The notes below the pieces were generated by a model. The model had not been told where the DNA came from, did no database searches, and saw only the letters and a program-made list of their open reading frames with translations. DNA of 33,254 bases, taken from positions 1 through 33,254 of IMG/VR virus record IMGVR_UViG_3300046715_000183, one strand, 5' to 3'. Shown piece by piece: positions 3,846-15,212 of the stretch. A program made the position numbers and the translations under genes. Within the stretch, counting starts at the first letter, position 1, and each line of letters opens with the position of its first letter. This DNA is from a virus.

Positions 3846-6128
3846 CTAGTTGGCGAGCTGGTAGGTGCCGCGGTTGACGGGGGTGACGGCGCAGGCTTCG
3901 CGGAGTTCGGCCATGGCGTTGTTGACGCTTCCGGGGGCGACGTCTTCCATGCGCTTGCGGACGTCGCGGAGGGCCATGGGGCCGTCGGCGAGGAGGTCGA
4001 GGATGCGGTCCTTGATGCTGCCGCTGGAGGGCTGGTCGTCTTCGTCTTCGAGGAGGTCGCGGGCGTCGCCTGCGTATCCGGCATACTCGGAGCCGCCTTC
4101 TTCGTCTTCTCCGGCGAGGAGGAGCTCGGCGTGGGGCAGCCACTTGGCGTACGCCTCCTGGAAGACCTTGTGCTCTTCCGGGGTGAGGGTCGGGATGGGT
4201 GCGGACTCGTACAGGGCGATGAGCCCGGGGTAGGTCTTGTTCTCCTTGCGGGCGTAGAAGACCCGCTCGAGGAACACGCTGCCGCCCTGGATGACGTTGG
4301 CCATGCCGGCGGTGATGGGCCCGTGCTTGGCCTCTTTGCCTTCGAAGGCGGCTTCGATGCTGCCTGCCGTTTCGGTCTTGAAGTAGCGCGGGATGGGCTC
4401 GGGGTAGATGCCGGGCGGGAGGACGCCGTCGGCGGCCATGTGCTGGGTGGTGGAGGAGTTGGTGCGGCCGAGCCAGACGGTGCCGTTCTTGGCGTTGGCG
4501 CGGACGCGGTCCTTGTCGCCGAGGTCGGCGAGGTGGATGGACTGGGCGGCGAAGCGGATGCCCATGCCGACCTTGCGGCCGGTGGACTGGGCGTCGCCGA
4601 CGTTTCCGGTGACCCACTTACGGAAGGGGCGGGGGACGTCGGCGTCGGCGGACAGGATCCGGTTGAGTTCGTCGAGGGTGGCGTTGGCGATGCGCCAGGG
4701 CTGGCCGGGTTCGAAGGATCCCCATCCGTTGGCTCCGCCCACGTCTTCGCGGTACTTGGCGAGGTCTTTGAAGGCGGCGAGGGTGGCGGCGGTGGCGGCG
4801 ATGCCTTTGCCGAAGTGGTAGACGCGCCCGTCTGCTTCTGGGATGGACATGCCGTTCTGGGCGTCGGCGACGATGGAGACGATGCCGGAGATGCGTTCGG
4901 CGGCAAGCACGTGGTTGAGGGCGACGGACTTGCCGGCGCCGGGGGCGCCGACGTACAGGTCGGTGATGGCGCCCATGACGGGGTCGAAGAGGGGGACGCG
5001 GGCGGCCCGGCCGTCGGGGCGCAGGCCGTTTTGGATGGTGCCGTCGTCGCGCATGGTGAGGTCTTCGATGGTTGCTTCGCGGATGTTCATGAGCGGGTGG
5101 GTTTTGTAGACGGAGATGTGGCCGTCTGCGAGCCCATCGGTCTCGATCATGATCAGGCTGGTGTCCTTGTATTTGAGGGAGCGGGCGATCTGCTTCTGGT
5201 TGAGCTGGATGAACTGGTCTTCGGGGGCGGTGACCAGGAATGCGATCCGGTTGGGTTCGCTGCGGTAGTCGACGAGGTGCATGCCGTCGGCTCCGCCGTT
5301 GGGTCGGGCGAGCTTCTCGTTGAACAGGCGCTCGAGGGGATGCTGATGCGCCTGCTCAAGCTGGTTGAGGGTGGGGCGGGCCTCGAGGAGTTTGCGGCCG
5401 GGCCCGGATCCTTCGATGAGGCTGAGGGTGACGGTGCCGGGGGGCAGGTCGAACACCCCGGCCAGCGCGGTGGGGTTGAGGTCGGGGACGGTTTCGCCTG
5501 CTTCGGCGACGACGATGCCCCAGAAGTCGCGGAAGCCTTCCTGGTACTGGTGGACGCCTGTGAGGAGGGTGGTGCCAGTGGCTTTCGCGTTGGCCCATTT
5601 CTGGGACTGGGCTTCGGCGTAGTTGGCGGGCGGGCGGGGCTGCTCGGGGGCAGCTTCGAGGGCGGGCGTGTTGTCGGTGGCGGGCAGGAGGGCGTGCAGG
5701 TTCAGGGAACGGGTGACGGGGATCGTTACGCCCATGAGGAGACCCCAGCCCACGGGAAGGCCGTATTCCCACAGGTCGGCACCGTCCCGCAGCAGGTTGG
5801 CGACGTACAGGCCGGAGCCGGTGAGGAGGGGCAGGGCCCGCTGGCAGGCCCGGATCAGGCTGAAGCCGATGGGGGTGTCCCGAAACTCGCCGATCCGCCG
5901 GTAGACGGAGGAGGAGGCGAGCAGTCGGCGCAGGGATGCGACGGCGAGCCCGGCGACGGCCAGGTGGGCGGGCCACAGCTGGTCGTAGTGGGGGGCGATG
6001 GCGATGCCGAGGGTGGCGGCGCCGTAGATGGTGCGCTCGAGGCGGGCGCGGCGGCGGATGCTTGCCGCGGGGACGAGGCGGGGGCCGTCGTGTACGGCCA
6101 GGTCGGGCGTCTTGTCGGTGACGGCCAC
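3846..6128 (-). CDS. traB: TraB-like FtsK/SpoIIIE DNA translocase
   Basis: 760 aa from GTG 6128, with AAGGAGG 9 bases upstream. Membrane-associated hydrophobic segments lie near residues 34-68, 98-113 and 121-138. The RecA-like motor has Walker A GAPGAGKS (394-401) and a Walker B-like ANATLDE (481-487). After an acidic linker (674-700) comes a winged-helix domain (about 704-760, with GPMALRDVRKRM and GSVNNAMAELRE). Streptomyces TraB proteins are hexameric, FtsK-like pumps that move double-stranded plasmid DNA between hyphae, and their C-terminal winged helix reads 8-bp repeats in the clt locus. Length, order and neighbours match TraB. A phage genome would not normally carry it. A partition-type FtsK role is the main alternative. 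Confidence 0.85.
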   Translation of the reverse strand: MAVTDKTPDLAVHDGPRLVPAASIRRRARLERTIYGAATLGIAIAPHYDQLWPAHLAVAGLAVASLRRLLASSSVYRRIGEFRDTPIGFSLIRACQRALPLLTGSGLYVANLLRDGADLWEYGLPVGWGLLMGVTIPVTRSLNLHALLPATDNTPALEAAPEQPRPPANYAEAQSQKWANAKATGTTLLTGVHQYQEGFRDFWGIVVAEAGETVPDLNPTALAGVFDLPPGTVTLSLIEGSGPGRKLLEARPTLNQLEQAHQHPLERLFNEKLARPNGGADGMHLVDYRSEPNRIAFLVTAPEDQFIQLNQKQIARSLKYKDTSLIMIETDGLADGHISVYKTHPLMNIREATIEDLTMRDDGTIQNGLRPDGRAARVPLFDPVMGAITDLYVGAPGAGKSVALNHVLAAERISGIVSIVADAQNGMSIPEADGRVYHFGKGIAATAATLAAFKDLAKYREDVGGANGWGSFEPGQPWRIANATLDELNRILSADADVPRPFRKWVTGNVGDAQSTGRKVGMGIRFAAQSIHLADLGDKDRVRANAKNGTVWLGRTNSSTTQHMAADGVLPPGIYPEPIPRYFKTETAGSIEAAFEGKEAKHGPITAGMANVIQGGSVFLERVFYARKENKTYPGLIALYESAPIPTLTPEEHKVFQEAYAKWLPHAELLLAGEDEEGGSEYAGYAGDARDLLEDEDDQPSSGSIKDRILDLLADGPMALRDVRKRMEDVAPGSVNNAMAELREACAVTPVNRGTYQLAN

Positions 6129-6678: not shown

Positions 6679-8913
6679 TCAGGTGTTGTTGTGGATCGGG
6701 GCGGACGGGGTGGACAGGCCGGCGTCGGCGGTGGCGATGTTGTAGGGCCGGTAGGCGTCGTTGAGGTCGTTGTCGGCGGTCTCTGCCATCTCGGCGGCCT
6801 GGAGGCTGGAGGTCTGCATTTCCTCGGCCATGCGAGCCACGAGGTCCATGGCTTCCGCCAGGCGGGCCATCGCGCCGGTGAACAGGGCGCCGATCAGGTT
6901 GTGGTTTGTGGCCAGGTCTTCGGCGAACACGATCAGGGTGTCGCGGAGTTTGATGGCCCGGGCGGCGAGCCTGGCGCACTGGTCGTGGGTCTTGAACGCG
7001 TCGTCCTTGAAGTCGCCGTACTCGTCGATGGCGTCATCGAGGGTGATTTCGGTGGCGTGCTGGGCGTCCATGTGGCGGGCGGCGACGGTGACGTCGTGGC
7101 CGGTGCGGGCGGCCTGCTTCTTGGCCTTGACGATGCGCGCGTCGGGTTTGGCGGATGCGGGGGGCATGGCGATGGGCTCCTTGGGGCGGGTGGTGCCGGG
7201 GCGCGGGAACGTCTTGGTGGATGCTGCGTTAAGGGCAGCCGGGCCGGTGGAGGGGAGGGCGGGGGTGCCGGTACTCAGGGCGTCGGGCTGCCACCGTTTG
7301 GCGCGGCTGCCAGGCACGTGGTCGCTGGTGGCGGTGTAGGTGGTGCCTGCGGCCTGTGCGGCGTTGGCGTAGGGGCTGCGGCGCTGCCGCTGCCCGTAGG
7401 TGCCCGCGCCGGGGCCGGGGTTGTTGCCTGTGGCCTGGCCTGCCCCGGGCGTGGCACCCGGTCCGGGAGCAGCGCCGGGGAACCATCCGCCGCCCGCGGC
7501 CTTCTTCTGGGCGTACGCGCGGGCCTTCGCCCACCACCGCCGGTTCTTCTTCCGCGCGTTGTGCTGGCCTGCGGCGCCCGCGCGCTTCGGCTTCTTCAGG
7601 TTGACCTTCGGCGTGTTGGCGCCGGCGCCTGCGGCCTGCTGCTGCTTCTTGCTCTTGGGTGCGCCCCAGACGGGCGGGGTGCCGTTGCGGCGGCGCTGCT
7701 TGAGTCGCTTACGAGCGGCCCGGTAGGCGTCCTTCCTGAGCGCGTCGGTGAGCGTGGTGCGTCCGGCGGCCTGCGCGGCGTTCTGCTTGCCCGCACCCTT
7801 GCTGTTGCCCGCCCCGCCCTTGCCGAGCCCGCCTTTGCCGGTCTGGCCTGCACCCACCTGGGGCGCGTTGTTCTTCCCCTTGTCCTTGCGGGTAGCGGGC
7901 GTGTTGTTGCCCCACAGTGCAGGGCTGTTGCCGTTCTTGCGGCGGCGCTCGAGACGGCGGGCGGCCGCCTTCTGGGCGTCGTTGGTGAGGGCCTTGCGGA
8001 GCGTGGTCCGTCCGCCGCCGTCCTGCTTGGTGCGCTGCTTGTTCAGCAGGTCTTTCGACCCGCCCTGGGAGCCGCGGTGCGGGCTCTTCTTCGGCCCGAC
8101 CCCCGAACCACCGGTGCCGGCGCCCTTGTTCTTCCGGGAGCCGCCGAGGGGCGAAGCGTTGTTCTTGCCGTGGCCCTTGGAACCGCCGCGCCCGAACAGG
8201 TCGCCGGTCTTCTTCGGTCCGGTGGAGGATCCGCTGTTGCGGCCCGCTCCCCCACCGCGGCCGCCCGATGCCCCGCCGGAACCGGAGCCGGAACGGCTGC
8301 CGAGCGTCTTACGGCCGAACTCCGAACTGGAGGGCGCCCGGTTCGACTTGGCGTGCTGCTGGGCGCCCTTGCCGCGGATGCCCTGCATGGCCGCACTGTG
8401 CTTGGCGCCGGCCTGCTCGAGGGAGTATCCGGCCTGCTGCATGGCCAGCTGGTGCTTGAAGCGGGCCTCGCGCAGCTGCGCGGTCTCGGCGTGGCGGGCT
8501 TGGCGGTTCTCCCACCAGGTGGACAGGACGGTGTGGGTGCCGCGCAGGGCGGCGATGGCGACGGCGAGGGTGGCGGCCATCGACAGGGCGCCCAGGCCGG
8601 GGGATCCCGGGCTGGTGTCGGGGTTGGGGTCGTTGTGGAAGGTGGCGGGGACGTGCCCGGGCTGCGGGCCCGGGACGGGGGCCGGGACGGGGGGCAGGGC
8701 AAGGCCCGGGGTGGGCAGTGCGGCGAGCGCGTCCAGGGGGCTGCGCCGGCCGGTGCGGGCGCCCTCACCAGTCGGGGCCGGAGGTGCGGTGGGGGGCGGC
8801 GGGATGACCGGGCCCATGGTCGTCGTCGGGGTCAGGGTGAACCCGGTCTGGCCCGTCCGGCGAGCAAAGTCGATCACGTTGCTGGGGTCGTCGCTGCCGT
8901 CGTAGTCGCTCAT
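6679..8913 (-). CDS. large basic Gly/Lys-rich membrane protein with duplicated module
   Basis: 744 aa from ATG 8913, after AAAGGGGG. A Pro-rich N-terminus and one probable membrane segment (about 107-124, MAATLAVAIAALR) lead to a helical region (130-180). A very basic, Gly/Ser/Lys/Arg-rich low-complexity core follows (about 180-480). In it a module of about 34 residues occurs twice (near 302-335 and 385-417): both copies start RTTL, carry an Arg/Lys-rich helix and end with NG..P..WG. A soluble helical C-terminal domain (about 590-744) looks folded. The core could bind DNA nonspecifically or phase-separate. Proteins of this make-up occur beside TraB-like genes in actinomycete elements, but no function is known to me. 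Confidence 0.78.
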   Translation of the reverse strand: MSDYDGSDDPSNVIDFARRTGQTGFTLTPTTTMGPVIPPPPTAPPAPTGEGARTGRRSPLDALAALPTPGLALPPVPAPVPGPQPGHVPATFHNDPNPDTSPGSPGLGALSMAATLAVAIAALRGTHTVLSTWWENRQARHAETAQLREARFKHQLAMQQAGYSLEQAGAKHSAAMQGIRGKGAQQHAKSNRAPSSSEFGRKTLGSRSGSGSGGASGGRGGGAGRNSGSSTGPKKTGDLFGRGGSKGHGKNNASPLGGSRKNKGAGTGGSGVGPKKSPHRGSQGGSKDLLNKQRTKQDGGGRTTLRKALTNDAQKAAARRLERRRKNGNSPALWGNNTPATRKDKGKNNAPQVGAGQTGKGGLGKGGAGNSKGAGKQNAAQAAGRTTLTDALRKDAYRAARKRLKQRRRNGTPPVWGAPKSKKQQQAAGAGANTPKVNLKKPKRAGAAGQHNARKKNRRWWAKARAYAQKKAAGGGWFPGAAPGPGATPGAGQATGNNPGPGAGTYGQRQRRSPYANAAQAAGTTYTATSDHVPGSRAKRWQPDALSTGTPALPSTGPAALNAASTKTFPRPGTTRPKEPIAMPPASAKPDARIVKAKKQAARTGHDVTVAARHMDAQHATEITLDDAIDEYGDFKDDAFKTHDQCARLAARAIKLRDTLIVFAEDLATNHNLIGALFTGAMARLAEAMDLVARMAEEMQTSSLQAAEMAETADNDLNDAYRPYNIATADAGLSTPSAPIHNNT

Positions 8914-9034: not shown

Positions 9035-9247
9035 TCACGGCGTGTGATGCCGGTAGAAGTCGTGGAGGTGGGAGGCCAGCGCGTTCCACACGCCGGTGTC
9101 GCCGGTCTTTTGTGCTTTGCGCGCGAGCATCCGGCAGGCGTCCCACCAGACCGCGGCAACGTAGTCGGGGCCCTTCTCTGCGGCCTCGGCCTGCCTGCGG
9201 TTCCAGTGCTCGGCCTGGTTGCGCTGCGCCAGCTGCTCGGGGGTCAC
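9035..9247 (-). CDS. small conserved-type protein of transfer operon
   Basis: 70 aa, starting at GTG 9247, which overlaps the preceding stop as GTGA, so translation is coupled. It is helical, Trp/His-rich near the end (DACRMLARKAQ, then SHLHDFYRHHTP), with no signal peptide or membrane segment and no recognised domain. Confidence 0.7.
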   Translation of the reverse strand: MTPEQLAQRNQAEHWNRRQAEAAEKGPDYVAAVWWDACRMLARKAQKTGDTGVWNALASHLHDFYRHHTP

Positions 9248-9795
9248 TTGGCCTCCGGGAAGTCCTGGAAGAGATCGGCGATGTTCTCGAGCGGCTCCGG
9301 CTGGCCGCCCGCCGGGGCGAACTGGTGGGGGTAGGGGGCGACGTACTGCGGTGCCGCCTGTACGGGTGTGACCTGCGGGTTTCCTGCCTGGGTGCCGTTG
9401 AAGGCGTGCGCGGACTCGGCCAGCGACTTCTGCGCGGCGGCCTCAACGGTGGCGGCGATCCCCAGGCGCTGACGTCGGTTCTCCTTGCGCTCCACCTCGG
9501 CGGCGCGCCGGGCGGGAAGTTCCAGCACTTCACGCCCGTACACCGCGTTGATGGCCTCGGCTTCCGCGGCCGCCTTCTCCAGCAGCCGGGCGACCCTCCC
9601 AAACCGCCTGCTGACCTTGCGAGCCCGGCGGCCGGCGGACCCGGTCCGGTCTCCTTCGATACGGGTGTTGGCGAGGCGGGCCTGAATGATCTGCGCCATC
9701 TGCCGAACCTGCACGGCGTCGTTGACGAACGTGTCGCGCTGCTCGTCGGTGAAGCTGCGCATCCCCTGCTCGGTCATCAGCTGCTCGATGTCCAC
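9244..9795 (-). CDS. helical coiled-coil protein of transfer operon
   Basis: 183 aa from GTG 9795 after CGGAGG. Residues about 15-125 are predicted by eye to be almost entirely helical, with alternating charged and Ala-rich heptads (RFGRVARLLEKAAAEAEAI). The C-terminal 50 residues are Pro/Gln-rich and end in a short acidic-aromatic tail (LENIADLFQDF) that looks like a docking peptide. It is coupled to the downstream 70-aa gene. No family is recognised. Confidence 0.72.
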   Translation of the reverse strand: MDIEQLMTEQGMRSFTDEQRDTFVNDAVQVRQMAQIIQARLANTRIEGDRTGSAGRRARKVSRRFGRVARLLEKAAAEAEAINAVYGREVLELPARRAAEVERKENRRQRLGIAATVEAAAQKSLAESAHAFNGTQAGNPQVTPVQAAPQYVAPYPHQFAPAGGQPEPLENIADLFQDFPEAK

Positions 9796-9836: not shown

Positions 9837-10838
9837 TTAGAGGTATCCGCCGTTGCCGGCGTTGCGCTGCTTGGTGCGGGACAGGACGGTGCGGACGTAC
9901 GCGTCACTCACGTCGATGCCGTGATGCCAGAGGAAGTCGACGATCTGAGGCGCTGATGCGCCGGGGTCCGCATCACGGGCGATGCGCACCGCCGCAGCCT
10001 TGGACAGGCCGTCGAGGTGCAGCGCCGCATCACGGGTGTGGGGCGCCTCGGTCTGCGGCGCGGCGGGGGGCATCTGGGGCGCATCATGCGTGTGAGCTGC
10101 GGCTTCACTGAACGCATCAGTACGGTCCCGGACGGGCCGGATCGGGGTGTGGGGCGCCGATGATGCGCTGAGTGCGGCGGCCGCATCGCTGGCGTGAGGC
10201 GCCGCGGGGAGGTGATGCGTGATGCGCGGCGCATCATCCGCATCAGCGGCGGTGAGTTCGAGGGGGCGGCGGCGCGTCAGTTCGCGGGCCTTGTCCTGCC
10301 GCATCAGTTCGACGTCGAAGTCGGTGGAGACCTCCGTCATGAGGAGCTCGGCGCCCATCTCGCGCTGCCGCATCTGGATGCGGTGCTGCGCCTCTTCGAA
10401 GGCCATGCCGCGTTCCATGGCGGCGAGGGTGTGCTTCTCGTCGTGGGTGAGGGCGGCGGGGTCGCGCATGTCGGCGAGGGCGAGGACCCAGACGGCTTTG
10501 GCGCCGAAGGGGAGGAACGGGCCGGCGGCGGCCATGGCGAGGCTGTTCTTCTCGATGCCGTGCATGGCGAGGAAGGCGGCGACGATGAGGAGGGTGGCCC
10601 AGCCGAAGGTGGGGACTATCCAGGCGCGTCCGGCGACTCGGAGTCCGCGGGCTTCGGCGATGATGACGGAGCCCCAGATGATGTCGGCGCCGGTGGCGAC
10701 GGTGAGGGCGATGAGTCCGGTTCCGAGGAGGTCGACGAGGCTCCAGGTCGTCCAGGCCAGGGAGGCCAGCGACAGGAAGACCGCCGGGAAGAGGAGCGGC
10801 GACAGGGGCCGCTTGCGGGTGGCCTGGGCGGTGGTCAT
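9837..10838 (-). CDS. SpdB-like four-TM protein with C-terminal HTH-like domain
   Basis: 333 aa from ATG 10838, behind AAAGGA. Four hydrophobic segments (about 14-34, 41-62, 73-93, 101-122) form the N-terminal membrane part. A charged helix (130-195), a long disordered Ala/Pro/His linker (196-270) and a helix-turn-helix-like C-terminus (about 278-322, with GASAPQIVDFLWHHGI) follow. SpdB-type membrane proteins of Streptomyces plasmids cooperate with TraB in intramycelial spread, and some bind DNA. This fits that group by topology and operon. The linker-coding DNA carries a dense array of a 7-mer in several frames, listed separately; its unusual GAT GCG codon choices suggest selection at the DNA level. 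Confidence 0.78.
   Translation of the reverse strand: MTTAQATRKRPLSPLLFPAVFLSLASLAWTTWSLVDLLGTGLIALTVATGADIIWGSVIIAEARGLRVAGRAWIVPTFGWATLLIVAAFLAMHGIEKNSLAMAAAGPFLPFGAKAVWVLALADMRDPAALTHDEKHTLAAMERGMAFEEAQHRIQMRQREMGAELLMTEVSTDFDVELMRQDKARELTRRRPLELTAADADDAPRITHHLPAAPHASDAAAALSASSAPHTPIRPVRDRTDAFSEAAAHTHDAPQMPPAAPQTEAPHTRDAALHLDGLSKAAAVRIARDADPGASAPQIVDFLWHHGIDVSDAYVRTVLSRTKQRNAGNGGYL
9954..10306. repeat. array of 11 TGATGCG motifs inside the SpdB-like gene
   Basis: Exact TGATGCG occurs on the + strand at 9954, 10161, 10213 and 10220. Its complement CGCATCA occurs at 9969, 10026, 10080, 10113, 10230, 10239 and 10300. GATGCG near-matches lie at 9981 and 10182. Copies at 10213 and 10220 abut head to tail, and copies fall in different reading frames, so protein repetition does not explain them. 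Elsewhere in the window the 7-mer is rare, with a further copy at 10900. A random 7-mer would be expected about 0.04 times here. Candidate clt/TRS-type recognition array for the TraB-like motor, or a partition or other protein-binding site. Confidence 0.7.
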
Positions 10839-14127: not shown

Positions 14128-14205
14128 ATGAGATTAACCGGTACCCCCGGTCTGTCGACAAGTGGCCCCCGTATGTTCCTCCTCTTGGCGGAGGCGGTCC
14201 AGTGA
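14128..14205 (+). CDS. possible 25-aa leader peptide with TTA codon
   Basis: ATG 14128 opens a frame ending at a TGA that overlaps the GTG of the initiator gene (GTGA, 14202-14205). Its second and third codons are AGA and TTA, both rare in Streptomyces; TTA needs the developmentally regulated bldA tRNA. It is downstream of an RNA hairpin (arms 14028-14035 and 14052-14059). This layout suits translational coupling of the initiator. A weak AAGAAG is the only RBS. Confidence 0.4.
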   Translation: MRLTGTPGLSTSGPRMFLLLAEAVQ

Positions 14206-15212
14206 GCTACCAGGGCCAGACCTGGGTCGACGAGGTAGCCCTGCCGCACCTGAAGAACGGCGGTGAGCTTCTGGTCATGCTCCGGGTGGCCAACCATGCC
14301 GGAAACGGCCCGACGAAGATGAGTGGCTGCCACGCATCCGCCAAGACTCTCGCCAAGGAGTGCCTGATGGGGCGCTCCACCGTGCTGAACCACCTGCGCA
14401 ACCTTGCCAAGCGGGGGCTGCTCGTACCCGGCGATCCGGGCCTGGTGAAGCACCTGCCACTCGACAAACGACCTCCCGTGTACGACCTGGGAGGCGCGCA
14501 CGAGCCGGGCTGCACCGGCGGCCACACCTACCTCACCGAGTGCCTGACCACGGGTGCTCAAATCGAGCACCCGCAGAAAACCCGCAGGTCAGCGGGTGTC
14601 AAATCTCAGCACCCGCAGCCCGCAGAGGGGGGAGCGGGTGCTCAAATCGAGACGGAGCGGGTGCTCAAATCGAGCACCAAAAGTTCTAAGGAATTGAAAG
14701 AGTTCTCTCCTCTCCCGGGGGCCTCGCCGTCTGCTGCGGAACCGTCCGCTTCGGCGGAGGCCGAAAACGAGAGAGAAGCAGCTGCGCAGAAGGACAACGA
14801 CACCCCCTCGGGGCTCCCGAGCGCAGCTGGCGAGACCAGCGACACGGACAGGGTGATCGACGCCTACATCGCCGCCTACATGAACACGGCCGGCCTGCCA
14901 CCGCGCCCCAACGCCATCCAGTCGGTGCGCACTGACGCCACGGCACTGCTGTCTGTTGGGCGCTCCGTGGGCAATCTGTGTGCATTGGCTGCCGAGTTGG
15001 GCGCCAAGGGCTGGACCGACCTGGTGAAGCACGCGCAGATGAACCCCGAGGCGGCTATCCGCCCTGCAGGCATCAGCAAGCCGTGGTGCGGCGAGTGCAA
15101 CAACGGCCGTGAGCCAATGTCCGCCGCCGAGCGGATGGTGGAGACCGACTCCGGGATGGCCAAGTGCCACTGCCACCCCGGCTACGTCCCTCCGCAGCCC
15201 GTCCGCGCCTGA
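14202..15212 (+). CDS. replication initiator / helicase-loader-like protein with internal origin
   Basis: 336 aa from GTG 14202. N-terminal winged helix (about 40-85, with SAKTLAKECLMGRSTVLNHL and RNLAKRGLL), like the DNA-binding domains of phage and plasmid replication proteins. A long unstructured linker (about 110-215) is followed by a helical domain (220-285) and a Cys-rich tail (CGEC, CHCH) that may bind zinc. The DnaB helicase gene follows, which is the order of initiator (O-like) then helicase in phages. The linker-coding DNA holds four iterons, as the origin of lambda lies inside gene O. The analogy is structural; no sequence similarity to lambda O is claimed. A plain transcription regulator is the alternative. 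Confidence 0.74.
   Translation: MSYQGQTWVDEVALPHLKNGGELLVMLRVANHAGNGPTKMSGCHASAKTLAKECLMGRSTVLNHLRNLAKRGLLVPGDPGLVKHLPLDKRPPVYDLGGAHEPGCTGGHTYLTECLTTGAQIEHPQKTRRSAGVKSQHPQPAEGGAGAQIETERVLKSSTKSSKELKEFSPLPGASPSAAEPSASAEAENEREAAAQKDNDTPSGLPSAAGETSDTDRVIDAYIAAYMNTAGLPPRPNAIQSVRTDATALLSVGRSVGNLCALAAELGAKGWTDLVKHAQMNPEAAIRPAGISKPWCGECNNGREPMSAAERMVETDSGMAKCHCHPGYVPPQPVRA
14551..14678. repeat. four iterons, candidate replication origin
   Basis: Four copies of a unit of the form CGGGTGCTC-N5-GAGCACC start at 14551, 14593, 14635 and 14658. The core CTCAAATCGAG is exact in copies 1, 3 and 4; copy 2 is imperfect; copy 1 is a full inverted repeat with 9-base arms. Spacings are 42, 42 and 23 bp, close to whole helical turns, so proteins would bind on one face. 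A relatively AT-rich stretch follows (about 14679-14715). Copies differ in the residues encoded, so the constraint is on the DNA. Confidence 0.72.

Follow-up and report, generated by a model that had tools for sequence, protein, structure and literature searches.

A heptamer repeat array within the SpdB-like gene of a ZL12-like Streptomyces element, putatively recognized by the C-terminal tail of the encoded protein

The SpdB-like gene and its genomic context

The stretch of DNA analysed here (33,254 nt; hereafter the window) is a virus-classed record (IMGVR_UViG_3300046715_000183) whose source is Streptomyces or one of its close relatives. The terminase region shares 78% DNA identity with plasmid-phage ZL12, and the two have a gene order in common (terminase, TraB/FtsK, a large protein and the spd gene), so that terminase and tra module together place the window among the ZL12-like Streptomyces plasmid-phages. 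The relatives, which include pSAM1, pCQ3, pCQ4 and an 87-kb S. seoulensis plasmid, are circular or linear plasmids of 85-93 kb and prophage-like contigs. The window has an SCP2-type tra module, and gene order in SCP2 is the same, with SCP2.27c, a DUF2637 membrane protein (Pfam match E 2e-15), occupying the place of the SpdB-like gene. On the minus strand, the module includes a TraB/FtsK-like translocase (3846..6128) of the same type as SCP2 TraA and, directly downstream of the SpdB-like gene, a TraA-like gene (9244..9795) that matches NCBIfam NF041213 with E 3.3e-07 and 30.5 bits, under the curated cut-off of 80. A GntR regulator gene is also present among the genes of the element.

The SpdB-like gene (9837..10838, minus strand) encodes a 333 aa protein (P0001), the architecture of which was derived from its translation and an AlphaFold model. 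The first 124 residues include four predicted membrane helices (residues 16-38, 42-63, 74-96 and 100-124; 10467..10793), followed by a long cytoplasmic helix (residues 132-190; 10269..10445), a disordered linker with pLDDT<50 (residues 203-272; 10023..10232) and a C-terminal helix-turn-helix (HTH) tail (residues 280-327; 9858..10001) comprising helices 280-290, 296-305 and 312-327, with pLDDT about 93-95. The tail is modelled as a three-helix HTH, confidently within the full protein and less confidently on its own, and its recognition helix reads ..DAYVRTVLSR.. in the one-letter code. Its nearest solved folds are HTH domains (best Z 7.2, for the Pax-6 paired domain), a resemblance at the level of fold only, and the StbA DNA-binding domain appears among the Foldseek matches listed for the tail. 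PDB sequence matches of the tail consisted solely of DARPin/designed-protein look-alikes at E 0.01 or worse and were disregarded. The full protein model returned no Foldseek match, and a Pfam search of P0001 gave no hit to PF10935 (DUF2637), even at E 5. The several modelled membrane helices, together with the position of SCP2.27c in an SCP2-like tra operon, are nonetheless those of an SpdB-type protein.

The TGMKGCG array

A first-pass annotation, made from the letters of the window alone, had reported eleven copies of TGATGCG at 9954-10306 inside the SpdB-like gene, in both orientations and in mixed reading frames, and had held that the encoded protein does not explain them. The count is exact: four copies lie on the plus strand (9954, 10161, 10213 and 10220) and seven on the minus strand (9969, 10026, 10080, 10113, 10230, 10239 and 10300), those at 10213 and 10220 abut as had been described, and the eleven occupy all three frames of the gene. 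The annotation had proposed counting the 7-mer against shuffled codons; 20,000 synonymous-codon shuffles of the gene yielded a mean of 1.04 copies and a maximum of 5, so the observed 11 stand far above what the protein sequence can account for. Over the whole window TGATGCG occurs 16 times (window shuffles mean 5.8, largest 13), with just 5 copies in the 33 kb remaining outside the array, a number near chance. No arrays were detected in the other window genes tested, and in elements of 85-93 kb for which positions were fully listed there is one TGATGCG cluster per element. KOPS-like polarity over the whole element was considered and rejected, given the single cluster and the near-chance counts elsewhere.

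The earlier count, correct for TGATGCG, is too low for the fuller word. One-base neighbours of TGATGCG, plus TGCGGCG, were scored in 13 genes, and since TGCGGCG (70 observed vs 16.6 expected), TGCTGCG (26 vs 7.3) and TGAGGCG (19 vs 6.2) exceed expectation alongside TGATGCG itself (116 vs 20.5), the word was defined as TGMKGCG. The window gene contains 18 such sites between 9946 and 10390 (2.7 expected and a maximum of 9 in synonymous shuffles), the extended definition adding 9946, 10054, 10173, 10195 and 10384 on the plus strand and 9990 and 10023 on the minus strand. Linker codons bear most of the array, the long cytoplasmic helix bears 2/18 extended sites and the segment encoding the membrane helices bears none. 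Flanks beyond the seven bases are unconserved, sites are separated by 7-197 bp, their spacing is evenly distributed modulo 3, and no helical phasing of sites is apparent (resultant 0.07 at 10.5 bp).

Codon choice at D-A pairs had also been described as forced, and this is borne out by the 14 relatives with the same tail, in which 75/93 linker and tail D-A pairs use GAT and 74/93 are coded GAT-GCG, compared with 0/32 D-A pairs using GAT in other window genes. It is very improbable that the array is a by-product of a repetitive disordered linker with biased codons, DNA without function of its own: six of the 11 TGATGCG do share one frame, coding x-D-A, but synonymous shuffles fall far short of the observed counts, the sites use both strands and all frames with even spacing modulo 3, the D-A codon bias is missing from other window genes, and unrelated linkers carry the same word. 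A codon or linker artefact was accordingly rejected on the synonymous shuffles and the D-A codon comparison. The DNA array is under selection.

Elsewhere in the window, and again within coding DNA, four to five repeats around GCGGGTGCTCAAATCGAGCACCCGC at 14551-14675 constitute candidate origin iterons; they sit inside a replication-initiator-like open reading frame (14202-15212, plus strand).

Tail types and their words among relatives

The comparative analysis drew on IMG/VR, GTDB genomes and plasmids and comprised 38 distinct homologous genes. These have a conserved membrane half but C-terminal tails of several kinds, unrelated to one another or only distantly related, and the word over-represented in the second half of each gene goes with the kind of tail: TGATGCG in type A, to which the window gene belongs, TGAAGCG in A', TGTTCGC in B, GATCGCG in C, GGCTCAG in D, CGGTACC in F (19 counts, both strands counting for this near-palindrome) and CGATCCG/ATCCGGA in G. 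Linker amino acids follow the word, with DA in type A, NT in B, and EP and AE in D. A pair test among 37 relatives, which asked whether a gene's top word is also enriched in its partner, found the word shared by 83% of pairs whose tails have an identity of at least 60, and still by 61% of those among them with N-termini less than 65% identical. Among pairs with tail identity below 40 the word was shared in 0/974, including 0/56 of those with N-termini at least 75% identical. Two natural domain swaps follow the same rule: the N-terminus of relative L016 is 86% identical to type B, yet its tail and word are of type D, and that of L024 is 81% identical to a type D gene, yet its tail and word are of type C.

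Relative to a control set of 114 genes from the same loci (largest single-gene score 8.1), 24/38 spd genes scored individually above the control 95th percentile and 14/38 above the 99th (Mann-Whitney p 3e-13 for spd against control genes). Arrays of types B, C and E are weaker; types A, D and F are each supported by themselves, B and C rest on between-gene agreement, and the type E word showed no consistency among L019, L069 and L070. The TraB gene of ZL12 has no array, ZL12's own spd gene gives a weak GTTCGAA signal and nothing more, and the jumbo-phage-like homolog L062 has no array. The densest array seen, CGGTACCG palindromes at nine places, lies in a single spd gene with a unique tail (L033, 7986-8969). 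At another locus (L023, 1597-1920), a cluster of TCCCCGCA/GCGGGGAC repeats, with 11-13 copies in 450 bp and a spacing unlike that of a regular CRISPR, is located upstream of the spd region. TCATGCG is depleted in type-A genes, including that of the window (1 vs 15 expected, 13 genes).

Since tail and array are adjacent DNA, part of the co-variation among close relatives reflects common descent. Common descent of neighbouring DNA alone is nevertheless insufficient, as seen from site turnover and, best of all, from chromosomal cases. The 125 sites of 14 type-A genes fall on 35 aligned positions, of which a pair of genes shares 43% on average. A search of 393 Streptomyces genomes with a profile of the tail only recovered chromosomal membrane proteins, most of which the N-terminal profile missed, and in five of their genes (L096, L098, L101, L103 and L105) TGATGCG, with 4-6 copies each, ranks first among all 7-mers of the entire gene when these are scored against synonymous shuffles. 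More distant tails, with a YVRTVNSR or similar helix, go with the same word family at a weaker level (14 vs 3.3, six genes). Correspondence extends to the recognition helix, YVRTVLSR occurring with TGATGCG in 14/14 type-A genes and YVRTVLAR or YVRTALKR with TGAAGCG in 2/2 relatives, so that in near-identical tails a recognition-helix residue, S versus A/K, coincides with TGATGCG versus TGAAGCG, a contrast resting on the two A' genes; chromosomal proteins with YVRTALSR retain TGATGCG. The HTH fold of the tail and its co-variation with the repeat indicate that the reader of the array is very probably the SpdB-like protein's own C-terminal tail. A chromosomal membrane protein with another kind of tail (L099), which has two tail-like domains in tandem, carries 21 copies of CGGACA against 4.7 expected.

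Proposed task, precedents and extent

Taken together, the sequence comparisons suggest that the array is probably a binding site of the SpdB-like protein encoded by the same gene, serving to dock the element at the membrane. We infer binding, docking and a role in transfer or maintenance along the following lines. The SpdB-like protein would sit in the membrane by its four helices, and its floppy linker of ~70 residues would bear a small HTH reading TGMKGCG as a monomer, and TGATGCG best. Given clustered copies in either orientation and at any spacing, many membrane-held tails could grip one DNA at once, and the element would thereby be docked at the membrane beside its own TraA/TraB-type transfer proteins. 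Docking would serve transfer and mycelial spreading, and perhaps stable inheritance too; the odds that transfer or spreading is the actual task of the array appear balanced. The lack of helical phase and the even spacing modulo 3 are as expected of a flexible tether, and non-palindromic, unphased sites in either orientation could suit leashed monomers, whereas a soluble dimer would probably need fixed geometry. Tail and array occupy adjacent codons, and recombination therefore moves both together; words differ between elements, even close relatives, and the difference would prevent confusion between elements that share a cell. Intramycelial spreading requires Spd proteins (PMC12857230, PMC4170104), and SpdB2 of pSVH1 binds DNA non-specifically and interacts with TraB (as cited in PMC4170104). 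In Bacillus subtilis, the FtsK-type motor SpoIIIE is aided by a membrane tether (PMC6593407).

The main rival to docking for transfer is maintenance, which we regard as rather unlikely. In such a centromere-like partition system, the membrane-held tail would anchor the low-copy plasmid-prophage for segregation and not for transfer, and the diversification of words among close relatives does resemble ParR/parC compatibility groups (PMC9426499), while spdB2 affects the stability of SLP2 (as cited in PMC4170104). The gene belongs, however, to the tra/spd operon of an SCP2-like module, and pZL12 and pSLE1 already have ParAB (PMC4487206); because ZL12-like elements carry ParAB elsewhere, maintenance may be covered (PMC4487206). 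In annotated relatives, no partner NTPase was noticed next to the gene, and one of these, L066, has a ParB-like gene upstream. This ParB/RepB/Spo0J-like gene (8454-8801, NBC_01238 plasmid) directly precedes the SpdB-like gene.

Autoregulation or silencing, with the tail shutting down the spd-tra operon by binding its own gene, either as a roadblock or by holding it at the membrane, is an unlikely task for the array. Sites within a transcribed gene early in the operon would provide feedback at no cost through self-binding, but the first of them comes only ~450 bp after the start of the gene, and across 14 genes the first 40% is free of sites; for promoter control there is a GntR regulator, and a dozen dispersed monomer sites bound by a membrane protein would make an odd operator.

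The first-pass annotation had seen in the repeats a recognition array placed in coding DNA, which stands, and had named TraB as its candidate reader, which on the present evidence does not, as the word follows the SpdB-like tail. Under that proposal the winged helix of the TraB/FtsK-like translocase would read the heptamers as a clt, loading the translocase. Streptomyces TraB is known to bind 8-bp repeats at clt (PMC4170104, PMC12857230), TraA of pWTY27 binds 7-bp TGACACC repeats that extend into its own gene, and the TraB of the window carries a winged helix at its C-terminus and shares an operon with the array. Against this, TGATGCG is kept where TraB is ~24% identical to that of the window or undetectable (L010, L013, L028 and L011), and is also found alongside the classical annotated traB of pCQ3 and pCQ4. 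Conversely, a single TraB family whose C-terminal helix (RTFRDLCAxL) hardly varies spans words A, A' and B, accompanying TGATGCG in L011, TGAAGCG in L036 and TGTTCGC in L017, as well as the type E relative L019. The S. pseudovenezuelae plasmid NZ_CP107756 encodes a TraB 66% identical to that of the window, with an equal winged-helix core (APGSVNNAM); TGATGCG is absent from its DUF2637 gene, which carries a different array (CGGTCTC, 15 vs 6.7 expected). TraB and array thus dissociate both ways, with equal TraBs beside different arrays and different TraBs beside equal arrays, and on this comparison a TraB reader was rejected as highly improbable.

For recognition by the SpdB-like tail, the nearest precedent of a site inside its reader's own gene is SpdA2/sps of pIJ101 (PMC4170104), in which a Spd protein likewise has its site, here putative, within its own coding sequence. 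The sps site is a 12-bp palindrome in one to three copies, common to many plasmids (PMC4170104). In contrast, the window word is no 12-bp palindrome of the SpdA/sps type but a non-palindromic heptamer with unconserved flanks, present in about a dozen copies and swapped with the tail, and its putative reader is membrane-anchored. The Streptomyces TraB/clt systems (TRS of pSVH1; clt of pIJ101, pJV1 and pWTY27) resemble the present case in their clustered short repeats of 7-9 bp on a conjugative element, in element-specific words and in reading by the HTH of a membrane-associated transfer protein, as proposed here. Unlike clt, the array lies inside the spd gene, ~4 kb from traB, tracks the SpdB-like tail, and has both orientations and irregular spacing. 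SpdB2 of pSVH1 and DUF2637 spread proteins such as SCP2.27c are likewise integral membrane Spd proteins, SCP2.27c in the same place of an SCP2-like tra operon; a sequence-specific site array is undescribed for them in the literature searched, and the DUF2637 model misses the window protein. To our knowledge, StbA and ParR are soluble proteins whose arrays lie outside the genes that encode them; RacA is a chromosomal protein with sites spread over the chromosome, and is not itself a four-helix membrane protein. These share with the proposed system a DNA-binding protein on a repeat array, of direct repeats in R388 StbA/stbDRs (PMC3098194) and ParR/parC (PMC9426499), and, in B. subtilis RacA, a DNA-membrane tether aiding an FtsK/SpoIIIE-type motor (PMC6593407), the tether role being that proposed here. 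StbA of R388 has a role in positioning plasmid DNA and lies next to transfer functions (PMC3098194), and ParR/parC word families can set compatibility (PMC9426499). The literature searched, with key subscription papers outside its reach, nowhere described word arrays in spd genes and contained a single paper, on another subject, mentioning DUF2637.

SCP2-type DUF2637 genes may work in the same way as the SpdB-like gene. The DUF2637 gene of S. cellulosae contains CCGCTTCG (7 vs 0.3 expected) and that of NBC_01689 contains CGGGAACG (6 vs 0.3); SCP2 itself has GCCGAAGC (9 vs 2.2), a less certain case because of an alanine-glutamate coil. No array was found in spdB of pIJ101, a plasmid that has a clt site (PMC3583192). 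An array is missing from 27 of the best-scoring 30 Streptomyces chromosomal DUF2637 copies, so arrays are not a general codon effect.

The joint swapping of tail and word suggests self-DNA recognition by a mobile element through one gene, in which DNA sites shape the protein, the amino acids of the linker (DA, AEP and NT runs) tracking the word. If the tails read the words, the several tail-word pairs would constitute a ready protein-DNA recognition code. Self-DNA recognition by Streptomyces elements is understood just for a few plasmids whose clt is read by TraB. We tentatively extend the proposal, in a form that may well prove too broad, to many actinobacterial conjugative elements, which might use a one-gene self-recognition cassette made of a membrane Spd protein, its exchangeable DNA-reading tail and an array in its own linker codons, the cassette and not TraB deciding which element is docked and moved. 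This extension covers plasmid-phages, SCP2-type theta plasmids and chromosomal elements; if true, the cassette would also serve elements like pSAM2, which have no described clt, and exchangeable tail and address would offer a simple answer that predicts which elements interfere.

Three of the 30 chromosomal DUF2637 copies (L129, L121 and L123), with ..EEDHIA tails and close relatives devoid of arrays, contain strong arrays built from other words: GTTCACA (9 vs 0.5), CGAGCAA (5 vs 0.1) and CTTCGA (6 vs 0.2).
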